Positions 60,130-64,000 of a DNA stretch of 64,000 nt are shown piece after piece; within the stretch, counting starts at the first letter, position 1; every line of letters begins with the position of its first letter. A program made the position numbers and the translations under genes. Below the pieces are notes generated by a model that was not told the origin of the DNA, did no database searches, and was given only the letters and a program-made list of their open reading frames with translations. This DNA comes from Cyclobacteriaceae bacterium (GTDB taxonomy: Bacteria > Bacteroidota > Bacteroidia > Cytophagales > Cyclobacteriaceae): NCBI GenBank assembly GCA_019638355.1, contig JAHBTY010000003.1:62001-126000 (forward strand), read 5' to 3'.

Positions 60130-61530
60130 TTATTCTGGTGCCCCTTCGTAACCCAGTAGTTTCATCATGCTGGTGCTCGATTGCTCTTTGGCGAACAACT
60201 CGGTTGTAATCTCACCGTCTTCGTTTCGGTCGATAAGTACATGTTTGGGCGCAGGAATAAGGCAATGCTGAATACCTCCATAACCTCCCAACGATTCCTG
60301 GTAGGCACCTGTATGAAAAAATCCAATATACAATGGTTCTTCATCGGTAATCATTGGCAAGAAAACTTCCCCGGTGTGGGCTTCGGAGTTATAGTAATCG
60401 TGGCTGTCGCACGTAAGCCCACCTATGTTTACTTTATGGTAAGGGTCGTCCCACTTGTTTATGGAAAGTAAAATGTATTTCTGATTTAAGCCCCAAACAT
60501 CAGGCAAATGTGTAATGAACGAACCATCAATCATGTACCACAACTCTTTGTCGTTTTGTAGTTTTTGATCTACCATGGAATATAAAACCGCTCCACTCTC
60601 GCCTACGGTAAAACTTCCAAACTCGGTAAAGATATTGGGTACGGGTACATTATTCTTTTCACAAATCCATTTAATGTTTTCCACGATCTGTTCGATCATG
60701 TACTTGTAGTCGTACTGAAATGTGAGTGATGTTTTAATGGGAAAGCCGCCACCAATGTCTATTGAATCCAACGTGGGGCAGATTTTTTTCAGTTCGCAGT
60801 ATTTGAAAATAAAGCGGCTTAATTCGCTCCAGTAATAGGCTGTGTCTTTAATGCCGGTGTTGATGAAGAAGTGCAGCATTTTAAGCGATGCTTTGCTGCT
60901 GGGCTGAATCTTTTCTTTGTACAATGGAATTATATCGCTGTAGCGGATACCCAAACGCGAAGTATAAAACTCAAACTTGGGTTCTTCATCGGCTGCTACA
61001 CGAATACCCACCTGATACGGCCGGGTTACATTGCTTTCGTAAGTGTCTATCTCGCTCAGGTTATCCAATATCGGAATGCAATTGAATTCTTCATTCAACA
61101 ATTCTGTTATGTACTGGCGGTATTGCGGCATTTTAAAACCGTTGCAAATAATGTAGGTTTCCTTCGATATTTTACCTCGTTCGTATAAGGTGCGCACAAT
61201 TGGAATATCAAATGCTGAAGAAGTTTCAATGTGTACATCGTTTTTCAAAGCTTCTTCCAATACAAAATCATAATGCGATGACTTGGTGCAATAGCAATAG
61301 GTGTACTTGCCATTGTATTTGAAGCGTTCAATGGCGTTGTTAAAGGTAGCTTGTGCAAACCGAATGTTTTCGCTGATGCGCGGCAGGTAGGTTATCTTAA
61401 GTGGCGTACCATACTGCTTGATGATGTCCATCAGAGGCACTTCGTTGAACAGTAATTCATGGTCGCGAACCTTAAATTCTTTTTGGGGAAACTCAAAGGT
61501 TTGCTCAATCAGTTCACGGTAGCTCTTCAT
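60130..61530 (-). CDS. speA: Arginine decarboxylase, PLP type of the alanine-racemase fold
   Basis: This 466-residue enzyme should convert arginine to agmatine for polyamine synthesis. It resembles the shorter SpeA-like decarboxylases of Bacteroidota: CYCTKSSHYDFV carries the PLP lysine (about Lys83). SIDIGGGFPI is the glycine loop, and GFFHTGAYQESLGGYGG lies near the C-terminus. Ornithine or diaminopimelate decarboxylase is less likely by length and local motifs. The gene is divergent from a ureohydrolase gene, which would take agmatine to putrescine and urea. A divergent member of the repeat family lies in its leader. Confidence 0.82.
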   Translation of the reverse strand: MKSYRELIEQTFEFPQKEFKVRDHELLFNEVPLMDIIKQYGTPLKITYLPRISENIRFAQATFNNAIERFKYNGKYTYCYCTKSSHYDFVLEEALKNDVHIETSSAFDIPIVRTLYERGKISKETYIICNGFKMPQYRQYITELLNEEFNCIPILDNLSEIDTYESNVTRPYQVGIRVAADEEPKFEFYTSRLGIRYSDIIPLYKEKIQPSSKASLKMLHFFINTGIKDTAYYWSELSRFIFKYCELKKICPTLDSIDIGGGFPIKTSLTFQYDYKYMIEQIVENIKWICEKNNVPVPNIFTEFGSFTVGESGAVLYSMVDQKLQNDKELWYMIDGSFITHLPDVWGLNQKYILLSINKWDDPYHKVNIGGLTCDSHDYYNSEAHTGEVFLPMITDEEPLYIGFFHTGAYQESLGGYGGIQHCLIPAPKHVLIDRNEDGEITTELFAKEQSSTSMMKLLGYEGAPE

Positions 61531-61534
61531 TAAT

Positions 61535-61610
61535 CAAATCGAAATAGTTGTTCGTTGTTTGTTCTTGGTTGTTGGTCTGATCTTCTAGTAACTAACAACG
61601 ATCAACATGC
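61535..61610 (-). repeat. AAC-rich imperfect inverted repeat (possible distant copy D)
   Basis: Read from the decarboxylase gene, AACAACCAAGAACAAACAACGAACAAC lies just before the start, with an opposite arm GATCGTTGTTAGTTACT further upstream. It shares layout, though few exact words, with copies A to C. Confidence 0.35.
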
Positions 61611-61646
61611 AACCATCAAGCAAAATTTAAGAGTGCAATAATGAGA

Positions 61647-61654
61647 TAATTTTG
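61647..61654 (+). promoter_or_regulatory. Probable promoter of the ureohydrolase leader
   Basis: TAATTTTG matches TAnnTTTG exactly. It would start transcription near 61660, giving a leader of about 165 nt that includes the whole folded region at 61682-61798. Confidence 0.5.
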
Positions 61655-61680
61655 CCATCTTTGCAACAATCAAAAGCCCT

Positions 61681-61752
61681 ATGGTTAATCACATTTCCTG
61701 CATGATTTTTAACCCCGTCCCCGCGGGCCTTCATGCTTTACCCGACTTCTAA
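61681..61752 (+). CDS. Possible 23-codon upstream ORF in the ureohydrolase leader
   Basis: An ATG at 61681 opens a frame of 23 codons ending at TAA 61752, starting MVNHISCMIF. It overlaps both main helices of the leader structure, so translation would change the fold. It contains no Arg or Lys codons, so an arginine-stalling leader is not suggested. Chance cannot be excluded. Confidence 0.3.
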   Translation: MVNHISCMIFNPVPAGLHALPDF

Positions 61753-61798
61753 ACGGGCAGGAAATGCGGTCGTTGAGGCCGGTTTTTACGATTAACCA
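61682..61798 (+). ncRNA. Structured leader RNA, three-way junction, candidate riboregulator
   Basis: Three helices can be read directly. P1 is TGGTTAATC (61682-61690) with GATTAACCA (61790-61798), 9 perfect pairs. P2 is CATTTCCTGC (61692-61701) with GCAGGAAATG (61757-61766), 10 perfect pairs. P4 is CGGTC (61767-61771) with GGCCG (61777-61781) around a GTTGA loop. The 55-nt top of P2 is GC-rich and can form CCCG/CGGG. P1 ends 28 nt before the GTG start of the ureohydrolase. I do not recognise a known riboswitch consensus. A ligand such as agmatine, arginine or guanidine is only a guess from the gene. Confidence 0.65.
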
Positions 61799-61826
61799 AA
61801 ATTCTTAATACTTAATTATTAGTTCT

Positions 61827-62789
61827 GTGAAAGAGATAAAGATCATCGAAGTGAAGTCCGAAATCGGTGCCGGTACACGCGGGGCCAGCCTGGGTGTGGA
61901 AGCGATGAAAATAGCCAGCCTTGACCTGAAGTCGGACCTATTCCGCCAGGTTGACTCTGTTGAAGTGGAAAATGTAAATGAACTTTTGTTTGATGGAGCC
62001 GAGCATGCTTATGCCAAATTTATAGATGGTGTTCTCATTATGGAAGAACGCGTTTGCCTGGAAGTGTACGAACAAATTTTTGATGATTACTTTCCCTTGA
62101 TTATGGCGGGCGATCACTCCACGGCTTATGGAACTATTGCCGGTATTAAAAAGGCTTATCCCAAGAAACGATTGGGGGTAATTTGGATTGATGCGCATGC
62201 CGATATTCACACACCTTTTACTACTCCCTCGGGTAACATGCACGGTATGCCACTGGCAATGGCCTGTGGTTTTGATAACCTGGAATGTAAAGTAAATGAC
62301 CCGCGCGGTGAAACGCTTGATTATTGGGAGCAGATAAAAAATGTGGGGATGCAAGGACCCAAAATTTTACCGGAAGACCTGGTTTATATTGCTGTGCGCG
62401 ATCTTGAAAAGCCCGAAAACTATTTGCTTAATAAACATAATATAAACTTCATTGAAGTTGACGAAGTAAAAAAAGCAGGTGCCGATGTAATTGCACACAA
62501 GGCATTACAAATGCTGGATCATTGCGACCTGATTTATGTTTCATTTGATGTAGATAGTATTGATAGCCGGTTTTCTACCGGTACCGGAACACCTGTGCCG
62601 AATGGACTAACCGTTGAAGAAGCAAAAATTCTGAATACCGAATTGTGCAAAGATGCGAAAGTGTGCGCCTGGGAAATTGTGGAGGTAAACCCCACCCTGG
62701 ATACTGAAAACCGCATGGCCGAAAGTGCATTCGAAATTCTGGAAGCCTCAGCAAAGTCAATTATGGGCCGGCCAGTAATGGCAGAGTAA
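61827..62789 (+). CDS. Ureohydrolase (arginase/agmatinase family), probably agmatinase
   Basis: This 320-residue enzyme has the complete manganese site of the ureohydrolases: His in MAGDHSTAYGT, Asp/His/Asp in WIDAHADIHTP, and Asp/Asp in SFDVDSIDSRFSTGTGTPVPNG. WEIVEVNP is a further conserved segment. The fold cannot by itself separate arginase, agmatinase or guanidinase activity. The divergent arginine decarboxylase gene favours agmatinase. The start is GTG at 61827, 28 nt after a strongly folded leader, so expression is likely controlled at the RNA level. Confidence 0.85.
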   Translation: MKEIKIIEVKSEIGAGTRGASLGVEAMKIASLDLKSDLFRQVDSVEVENVNELLFDGAEHAYAKFIDGVLIMEERVCLEVYEQIFDDYFPLIMAGDHSTAYGTIAGIKKAYPKKRLGVIWIDAHADIHTPFTTPSGNMHGMPLAMACGFDNLECKVNDPRGETLDYWEQIKNVGMQGPKILPEDLVYIAVRDLEKPENYLLNKHNINFIEVDEVKKAGADVIAHKALQMLDHCDLIYVSFDVDSIDSRFSTGTGTPVPNGLTVEEAKILNTELCKDAKVCAWEIVEVNPTLDTENRMAESAFEILEASAKSIMGRPVMAE

Positions 62790-62837: not shown

Positions 62838-64000
62838 ATGATAACCCGGCAATTAAACACACAACTCCATGCTCAGTTAAATCGATTTCCCGTACTTGGT
62901 ATTATTGGCCCGCGGCAGGTGGGTAAAACAACGCTTGTTAAATCTTTAGCAAATCCCTCCGAAAAAAAGGTTGTATATCTTGATCTTGAACTCCCTTCCG
63001 ATCGTGCCATATTGAGAAACCCAGAACTGTTTTTCAAGGAGAATATGGATAAGATCATCATTCTGGACGAAATTCAGTTAGCTCCGGATATTTTCCCCGT
63101 GATGCGGTCTATAATAGACATCAGGCGAAAACCGGGAAAATTTATTGTAACCGGTTCTGCCTCTCCGGCTCTGCTTAAACAAGGTTCTGAAACACTGGCT
63201 GGCAGAATTATCTTCAATGAATTGCATCCTTTTTCCCTTGTCGAAACTGGCGACATAGATTATCGAAAGTTGTGGTTACGGGGAGGATTTCCTACGGCTT
63301 ATCAGGCAAAATCTCATGGTGCAGGTTTTGAATGGCTATCAAATTTTTTAGCTACCTACATCAATCGCGATTTACCTATCCTTGGTTTTACATCAAGTCG
63401 AATTCAGGTAGGAAGATTAATTCAGATGCTTGCAGGTTCGCAAGGTTCAATCCTTAATCTATCAACGTACTCAAAATCGCTGGGCGTATCGGTGCCCCTG
63501 GTTGATAAATATATTGATGTACTGGAAGAAACTTTTTTACTTCGTAAACTTCAGGCATATCATGCTAACTTCAAGAAGAGAATAGTTAAATCGCCTAAAG
63601 TCTATATCCGCGACACAGGATTATTGCATTCTCTTTTACGTGTAGGAAGTATAACGGAATTATTGAGTCATTTTTTAGCTGGTTATTCGTGGGAGAGTTT
63701 TGTTATTCAACAAATAGCGGCTCATCTGGATAGCAGAAATCAATTGTTTTACTACCGAACACAAGATGGTGCCGAGGTTGATTTGGTTATTACCAAAGGC
63801 GATAAACCGTGGGTAAGTATGGAAATAAAATTAACTGATAGCCCTGTGCTTACAAAGGGAAATTACATCGCGTTAGCAGATGTTAAGGCAAAGCATAACC
63901 TGATTGTTACACCATCATCAAAATCATATTCTTTTGATAAGAATATTCAGGTGACCAATATTAACGAACTACTTCCTCGCCTAGGTGATTTGAACTTATT
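62838..64000 (+). CDS. AAA ATPase with DUF4143, C-terminus cut by window edge
   Basis: The frame opens at ATG 62838 and has no stop before the window end, so at least 387 residues are present. The N-terminal AAA_14 domain has Walker A GIIGPRQVGKTTL, Walker B KIIILDEIQLAPD, and VTGSASPALLK. A DUF4143 domain follows, with YINRDLP, KVYIRDTGLLHSLL, GYSWESFVIQQI, and a nuclease-like end YRTQDGAEVDLVI then SMEIKLTDSP. This D-x-E-x-K arrangement resembles the PD-(D/E)xK fold. Such single-gene ATPases are common, mobile and of unclear function. Confidence 0.88.
   Translation, partial: MITRQLNTQLHAQLNRFPVLGIIGPRQVGKTTLVKSLANPSEKKVVYLDLELPSDRAILRNPELFFKENMDKIIILDEIQLAPDIFPVMRSIIDIRRKPGKFIVTGSASPALLKQGSETLAGRIIFNELHPFSLVETGDIDYRKLWLRGGFPTAYQAKSHGAGFEWLSNFLATYINRDLPILGFTSSRIQVGRLIQMLAGSQGSILNLSTYSKSLGVSVPLVDKYIDVLEETFLLRKLQAYHANFKKRIVKSPKVYIRDTGLLHSLLRVGSITELLSHFLAGYSWESFVIQQIAAHLDSRNQLFYYRTQDGAEVDLVITKGDKPWVSMEIKLTDSPVLTKGNYIALADVKAKHNLIVTPSSKSYSFDKNIQVTNINELLPRLGDLNL

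Follow-up and report, generated by a model that had tools for sequence, protein, structure and literature searches.

A putative leader peptide with a conserved Leu-Pro-Asp end ahead of arginase genes in a clade of the Cytophagales

The leader of an arginase-family gene, located in a 64,000-nucleotide stretch of Cyclobacteriaceae DNA (the window), is rather likely to be a regulatory leader-peptide gene that acts through arrest at its own stop codon and controls arginase through the RNA of the following spacer. The predicted 23-amino-acid product, ending Leu-Pro-Asp-Phe, probably pauses the ribosome at its stop codon. Promoter, upstream open reading frame (uORF), LPD[FYL]-UAA/UGA end and a spacer of 60-81 nt are constant among relatives and the helices vary by lineage; this is the anatomy of a leader peptide acting on its own ribosome at termination. 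Most of the leader fold in the window consists of the 23-codon uORF at 61681-61752, which was overlooked by an initial annotation of the same DNA. The features of the locus are as follows, in coordinates of the window.

60130-61530, minus strand: divergent arginine decarboxylase-like gene (TIGR01273); context, outside the leader
61656-61663, plus strand: -7 promoter box CATCTTTG, one mismatch to TAnnTTTG
61681-61752, plus strand: leader-peptide ORF (uORF), 23 codons and TAA, MVNHISCMIFNPVPAGLHALPDF (conservation, C-terminal profile, pN/pS)
61682-61690, plus strand: 5' strand of P1, covering the uORF start codon and codons 2-4, paired with 61790-61798 (cognate pairing, pair counts)
61692-61701, plus strand: 5' strand of P2, covering uORF codons 4-7, paired with 61757-61766
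61735-61752, plus strand: LPD[FYL]-stop motif, proposed arrest site (C-terminal profile, UAG avoidance)
61741-61744 and 61754-61757, plus strand: short third helix CCCG/CGGG, present in the sequence
61757-61766, plus strand: 3' strand of P2, 5-14 nt past the uORF stop (fold, cognate pairing, pair counts)
61767-61787, plus strand: P5 hairpin CGGTC-GTTGA-GGCCG followed by T5, a weak terminator-like element (1 found, 0.5 expected in shuffles)
61790-61798, plus strand: 3' strand of P1, ending 28 nt before the arginase start (fold, cognate pairing, pair counts)
61827-62789, plus strand: arginase-family gene with a GTG start, the proposed regulated gene (TIGR01229, PF00491)

The gene at 61827-62789 scored 235.7 bits against TIGR01229 (rocF_arginase), above the cut-off of 227.6, and 78.6 bits against the agmatinase model, below the cut-off of 174.3. 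The solved chains closest to its product are named arginase, the best being 6dkt_A (E 3.5e-44). An AAA_14/DUF4143 ATPase-type gene (62838-63998) lies directly 3' of the arginase gene in the window. The divergent gene at 60130-61530 yielded 149.2 bits against TIGR01273, below the cut-off of 624.1. Within the DNA fetched, a divergent decarboxylase was present at all 60 uORF-carrying loci L031-L090 and at 12 of the 29 non-carriers L091-L119; the decarboxylase/arginase pairing is thus not specific to carriers. The leader of the decarboxylase contains an imperfect inverted repeat of GTTGTTCGTTG type at 61547-61606, with arms of 17 nt that are 88% complementary and separated by 26 nt; stretches resembling GTTGTTCG...CGAACAAC are visible in some relatives (L048, L055). 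A chance match to mir-3613 is attributable to this repeat.

The initial annotation placed a TAnnTTTG box upstream of the fold, and such a box is present at 61656-61663, albeit with one mismatch. In Flavobacterium the corresponding promoter box is described as spanning -12 to -5 (PMC9723704), from which transcription is predicted to start at approximately position 61668. The sequence CATCTTTR occurs upstream of the uORF in all 82 relatives carrying it, 15-21 nt from the ATG in 77, and a second CATCTTTR or TAnnTTTG box was found within the spacer of a single leader of the 82. The order promoter, uORF, arginase is fixed across carriers. A compact promoter region common to both divergent genes occupies 61630-61670, and a GCAATATTG-type sequence on the decarboxylase side recurs together with CATCTTTGCAA on the arginase side in those leaders of relatives that were examined. 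The arginase gene of the window begins with GTG, as do 47 of the 82 carrier genes at the start inferred by BLAST, where 24 of the 82 showed no start codon and were left uncorrected; GTG is a weak start and fits a regulated arginase gene.

When the leaders of relatives were compared side by side, CCCGACTTCTAA was the most conserved stretch and shared its frame with the ATG that directly follows the promoter box. A first scan of 89 arginase loci identified the uORF in all 60 whose arginase identity was 69% or higher (L031-L090), and in none of the other 29. A second collection of 80 loci, with organism names included, lost 36 as duplicates of earlier loci, among them L121, which had also yielded a chance ORF match. 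The non-redundant total of 133 loci comprised 82 with the uORF; it was absent from a single member of the clade (L167) and from 50 distant loci, one of which (L177) cannot be judged because only 39 nt lie upstream. Accordingly, 82 of the 83 non-redundant leaders from one Cytophagales clade have the uORF, of 17-27 codons, and the 49 more distant arginase loci that could be tested have none; since the search motif was chosen after viewing the first loci, the clade counts are partly circular and the 49 distant loci serve as the control. Among the carriers are MAGs of Cyclobacteriaceae type, Chryseolinea, Chryseotalea sanaruensis and two Chryseosolibacter strains, and the arginase loci of Fulvivirga, Algoriphagus, Belliella and Cecembia were without the uORF. 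Within the 200 nt preceding the arginase start of L167, a 10-codon ORF (MALNLSRADS) lacking the motif occupies the usual place and is possibly a decayed leader peptide.

Among the 82 uORFs, 37 have 23 codons, 31 have 19, eight have 18 and six have other lengths; a 75-codon frame at L042 was shortened to its last ATG. The distance from uORF stop to arginase start is 74 nt in the window and 60-81 nt in 76 of the 82, with all three relative frames represented (31, 28 and 23). At 61735-61752 the last base of a His codon is followed by Ala-Leu-Pro-Asp-Phe-stop. Counting from the C-terminus, Pro occupies position -3 in every one of the 82 peptides, Asp position -2 in 81 and Leu position -4 in 71, and the last residue is Phe in 43, Tyr in 21 and Leu in 13 (77 of 82 together). 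His is found at the sixth position from the end in 50, and L084 is exceptional in ending PGY. The N-terminal two thirds vary freely, with length steps of 4-5 residues, and several peptides have a hydrophobic middle. The third codon positions of the C-terminal motif are degenerate. In frame, pN/pS was 0.17 for the 18-codon set, 0.46 for the 19-codon set and 0.47 for the 23-codon set, compared with 3.02/2.64, 1.30/1.35 and 0.90/1.23, respectively, for the other two frames; these tests took the 76 of 82 uORFs with lengths of 18, 19 and 23 codons, and in the 23-codon set the frames differ only modestly. Judged from these substitution patterns, the uORF evolves as coding sequence. A search of NCBIfam with three of the 82 peptides returned no families up to E 10, short peptides being hard for HMMER.

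The stop codon of the uORF is constrained as well. TAA terminates 42 of the uORFs, TGA 39 and TAG only one (L032), whereas the arginase genes of these loci have TAA 21 times, TAG 21 times and TGA 11 times; these figures refer to the 53 of 82 genes that could be read, the stop of the remaining 29 lying beyond the DNA fetched. ORFs of at least 180 aa in the window end in TAA (24), TAG (11) or TGA (8). On a FastTree tree with Fitch reconstruction, one of 16 stop changes at the uORF involved TAG against 14 of 17 at the arginase gene (Fisher p 1.3e-5). UAG is the stop codon read by RF1 only. Its avoidance therefore suggests that release by RF2 matters for the uORF, as has been described for TnaC (PMC8429421). 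Two features of peptides that arrest the ribosome at termination, as TnaC and SpeFL do, are seen here: the C-terminal constraint (Pro 82/82, Asp 81/82) and the constraint on stop identity.

The motif was sought elsewhere with pattern scans. In the genome from which the window derives, 20 sites matched YTNCCNGAYTWYTRA and five matched the reversed control, and only in the arginase leader did the match belong to an ATG-started ORF of 18-27 codons that lies outside any larger gene; another 18-codon match (L203) was set aside as it lies inside a 342-aa ORF. The pattern HALPD[FY]-stop gave four matches among 395 genomes sampled from the phylum, three of them arginase leaders, and 14 among 295 sampled from the family, ten of them arginase leaders and the remaining four without an in-frame ATG. 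In these scans the motif stood within an ATG-started short ORF only ahead of arginase; the strict pattern misses most variants and hence says little about relaxed relatives elsewhere.

Two long helices of 9 and 10 bp, noted in the initial annotation, are present where it placed them (P1 and P2) and covary across relatives. They connect the early codons of the uORF with the spacer beyond its stop, and the 3' strand of P1 at 61790-61798 bears out a fold closing 28 nt before the GTG. In the minimum-energy fold a competing local hairpin takes the place of the innermost two pairs of P2. Compared with dinucleotide shuffles, the fold of 61655-61826 gave z -2.78 (1/200 as good) and that of 61668-61800 gave z -3.24 (0/200). 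As the leaders are more divergent than a single alignment can hold, a cognate-pairing test was preferred to a covariance model: codons 1-9 of every uORF were paired with its own spacer and with those of distant relatives, with correction for row and column means. Four of the 82 leaders, with gaps exceeding 100 nt, were left out of the pairing, pN/pS and spacer analyses, leaving 78. Cognate pairing of P1/P2 was favoured among 36 representatives (z -5.5, 0/5000 null draws as extreme) and among all 78 leaders (z -11.8), 25 of the 78 being in the best 5%; taken singly, only 9 of the 36 representatives were in the best 5%, and the test detected no P1/P2 pairing in leaders such as L042, L060, L078, L084 and L088. 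An earlier version without composition correction was weaker, with 18 of 78 (23%) beating 95% of non-cognates.

Pair counts in two sub-alignments agreed. In alignment A1 (13 leaders) five pairs had changed on both sides against 1.9 in shuffles (2/500 as high), and in A2 (8 leaders) four against 1.6 (6/500), further pair types in A2 not rising above shuffles (487/500). Pairs of P2 changed on both sides numbered 3 of 9 in A1 and 4 of 11 in A2. RNAalifold favoured the forward strand in group B (-65.3 vs -45.6 for the reverse); in group A the reverse strand folded as well as the forward (-43.9 vs -43.7). Conservation of P1/P2 by pairing and covariation is supported in some lineages only. Since many leaders have no recognisable P1/P2, the output step must differ between leaders. 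The third helix of the initial annotation is present as the short CCCG/CGGG, with the Pro-Asp codons of the uORF as its 5' arm; as an RNA element it found no backing, a hairpin around the stop codon giving z -0.84 with 961/5000 null draws as extreme in 55 representatives. Such a stop-codon hairpin had seemed frequent on inspection of the leaders and was rejected as a conserved RNA element by this test. No conserved unpaired junction or core was found across the clade, so that of the covariation and conserved junction by which the proposed RNA was to be recognised, the former was obtained in part of the clade and the latter was not. Terminator-like folds of -15 kcal/mol or lower followed by U were found in 63% of the 78 leaders and in 26% of shuffles. 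The spacers are T-rich (39%) with C exceeding G in only 26 of 78; without a C-over-G bias, a TnaC-like rut site is not evident, and a Rho/rut spacer of that kind was rejected.

These data can be assembled into a largely inferred working model. Transcription would start near 61668 and a ribosome would initiate on the uORF at 61681. In the presence of a small metabolite from the arginine or polyamine pathways, the nascent peptide would, through its C-terminal (A)LPD[F/Y/L], slow or block its own release at UAA or UGA. The ribosome held there would cover the start of the spacer, so that the first uORF codons could not pair with the 3' strand of P2. This strand begins 5 nt past the stop, presumably partly within reach of the held ribosome, which would therefore prevent its pairing. 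Upon release, P2/P1 would close behind the ribosome, followed in many lineages by a U run, and the closed helices would lower arginase expression, either through early transcription termination or through folding of the leader. An arrested ribosome would thus favour arginase, and by the analogy of TnaC and SpeFL the signal would be the substrate or product of the enzyme (arginine, ornithine) or a polyamine.

Several other explanations account for part of the evidence. It is unlikely, although worth serious thought, that there is no peptide-specific sensing and that translating the uORF does no more than open P1/P2, or is linked to arginase through reinitiation, arginase then following general translation. 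P1 covers the uORF start and P2 the next codons, any ribosome on the uORF would open both, and a general reinitiation role has been proposed for leader genes (PMC4833913). Under such a mechanism the invariant Pro-Asp, the fixed C-terminus and the avoidance of UAG would not be needed. A stop-to-start gap of 60-81 nt is, moreover, long for reinitiation. We consider it very unlikely that the uORF encodes a small functional protein that happens to share a transcript with arginase, such as a small peptide of the membrane or one that binds arginase: coding-type evolution and the hydrophobic middle of several members would suit such a protein, but not the freely varying N-terminal two thirds with their length steps, the occurrence of the motif in ATG-started short ORFs ahead of arginase only, or the avoidance of UAG, which it leaves unexplained. 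Least probable is a classical amino-acid attenuator, with pausing at regulatory codons when charged tRNA is scarce. A leader ORF, an alternative hairpin and a U run are present, and attenuators have been suggested for amino-acid biosynthesis operons of F. psychrophilum (PMC9723704); yet there is no run of Arg codons, the only codons counted (27 of the 82 uORFs have none and the maximum is three), and conservation is concentrated at the last codons and the stop.

A metabolite-binding RNA aptamer, with the ORF incidental, is in our estimation equally as improbable as the small protein. The stable fold and the covarying P1/P2 would be expected of a riboswitch, and absence from Rfam is compatible with a new family: Rfam 15 produced no matches at gathering across the whole window, in line with the initial annotation, which saw no agreement with the consensus of several known riboswitch classes, and four sub-threshold matches within 61530-61900 (searched to E 10; E 0.24-4), including a minus-strand match to twister-P3, were judged to be chance. 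Conservation is nevertheless at the level of codons, with third positions varying; there is no unpaired junction conserved clade-wide, the third helix is unsupported, and many leaders keep the peptide without P1/P2. The initial annotation was therefore right in seeing a regulatory leader of a ureohydrolase gene, here arginase, but its riboswitch gives way to a peptide present in 82 of 83 leaders, in which P1/P2 are often unrecognisable. Its interpretation is partly supported, the leader being cis-regulatory, new to Rfam and equipped with two covarying long helices. Arginine or polyamines may be sensed, but by a nascent peptide within its ribosome and not by the RNA alone.

Searches of the openly licensed literature found no paper on a Bacteroidetes ribosome arrest peptide or on an upstream ORF leader peptide under Cytophag-, and nothing relevant on an arginase leader peptide with transcription attenuation or ribosome stalling. 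If the leader-peptide interpretation is true, Bacteroidota would contribute a natural arrest peptide, and translation in this phylum is unlike that in E. coli, with initiation proceeding largely without Shine-Dalgarno sequences. Some 80 natural variants would then be at hand with which to map the requirements of the arrest sequence, and the case would warn that coding sequence may be concealed in covarying leader folds. The avoidance of UAG offers a sharp and cheap handle on release-factor dependence.

The fungal arginine attenuator peptide is likewise the uORF peptide of an arginine-pathway gene and arrests at its stop with arginine; it differs from the present leader in being eukaryotic, in preceding a biosynthetic gene and in its unrelated sequence. 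Bacterial precedents of the same layout are described for TnaC and SpeFL (PMC8429421) and for mdtU and speFL (PMC7815308). TnaC, of the E. coli tryptophanase operon, is a 24-residue uORF before a catabolic gene with a conserved C-terminus, a Pro near its end, an RF2-readable stop and the arrangement promoter, uORF, spacer, enzyme (PMC8429421). Its sequence is unrelated and its Pro is the last residue rather than the third from last, and in contrast to TnaC the present leader belongs to Bacteroidota and to arginase, has no rut-like spacer and, in part of the clade, has its uORF start buried in long-range helices. The ornithine-sensing SpeFL also precedes a gene of the arginine/polyamine pathway, speF, and is described as arresting at its stop and affecting Rho and RNA structure (PMC8429421, PMC7815308), arrest being a proposal in the present case. 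It is an unrelated peptide of gammaproteobacteria for which release by RF1 is reported, whereas UAG is avoided here. MdtU, the uORF of the mdtJI spermidine exporter, is similarly polyamine-linked, with a conserved C-terminus, a position approximately 100 nt before its gene and pairing with downstream RNA, but has 34 codons, is Rho-dependent and is unrelated in sequence (PMC7815308). We regard the case as evenly poised for LPD[F/Y/L]-stop being a new class of metabolite-sensing arrest peptide in Bacteroidota, in which peptide and ribosome together would respond to arginine, ornithine or a polyamine by preventing RF2-type release and would keep a long-range hairpin embedding the uORF open, thus combining a peptide sensor and an RNA switch in one leader, the helices having been rebuilt often while the end of the peptide stayed fixed. 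By this comparison, the leader peptide would work in the manner of TnaC, SpeFL and MdtU, but is a member of none of them by sequence.
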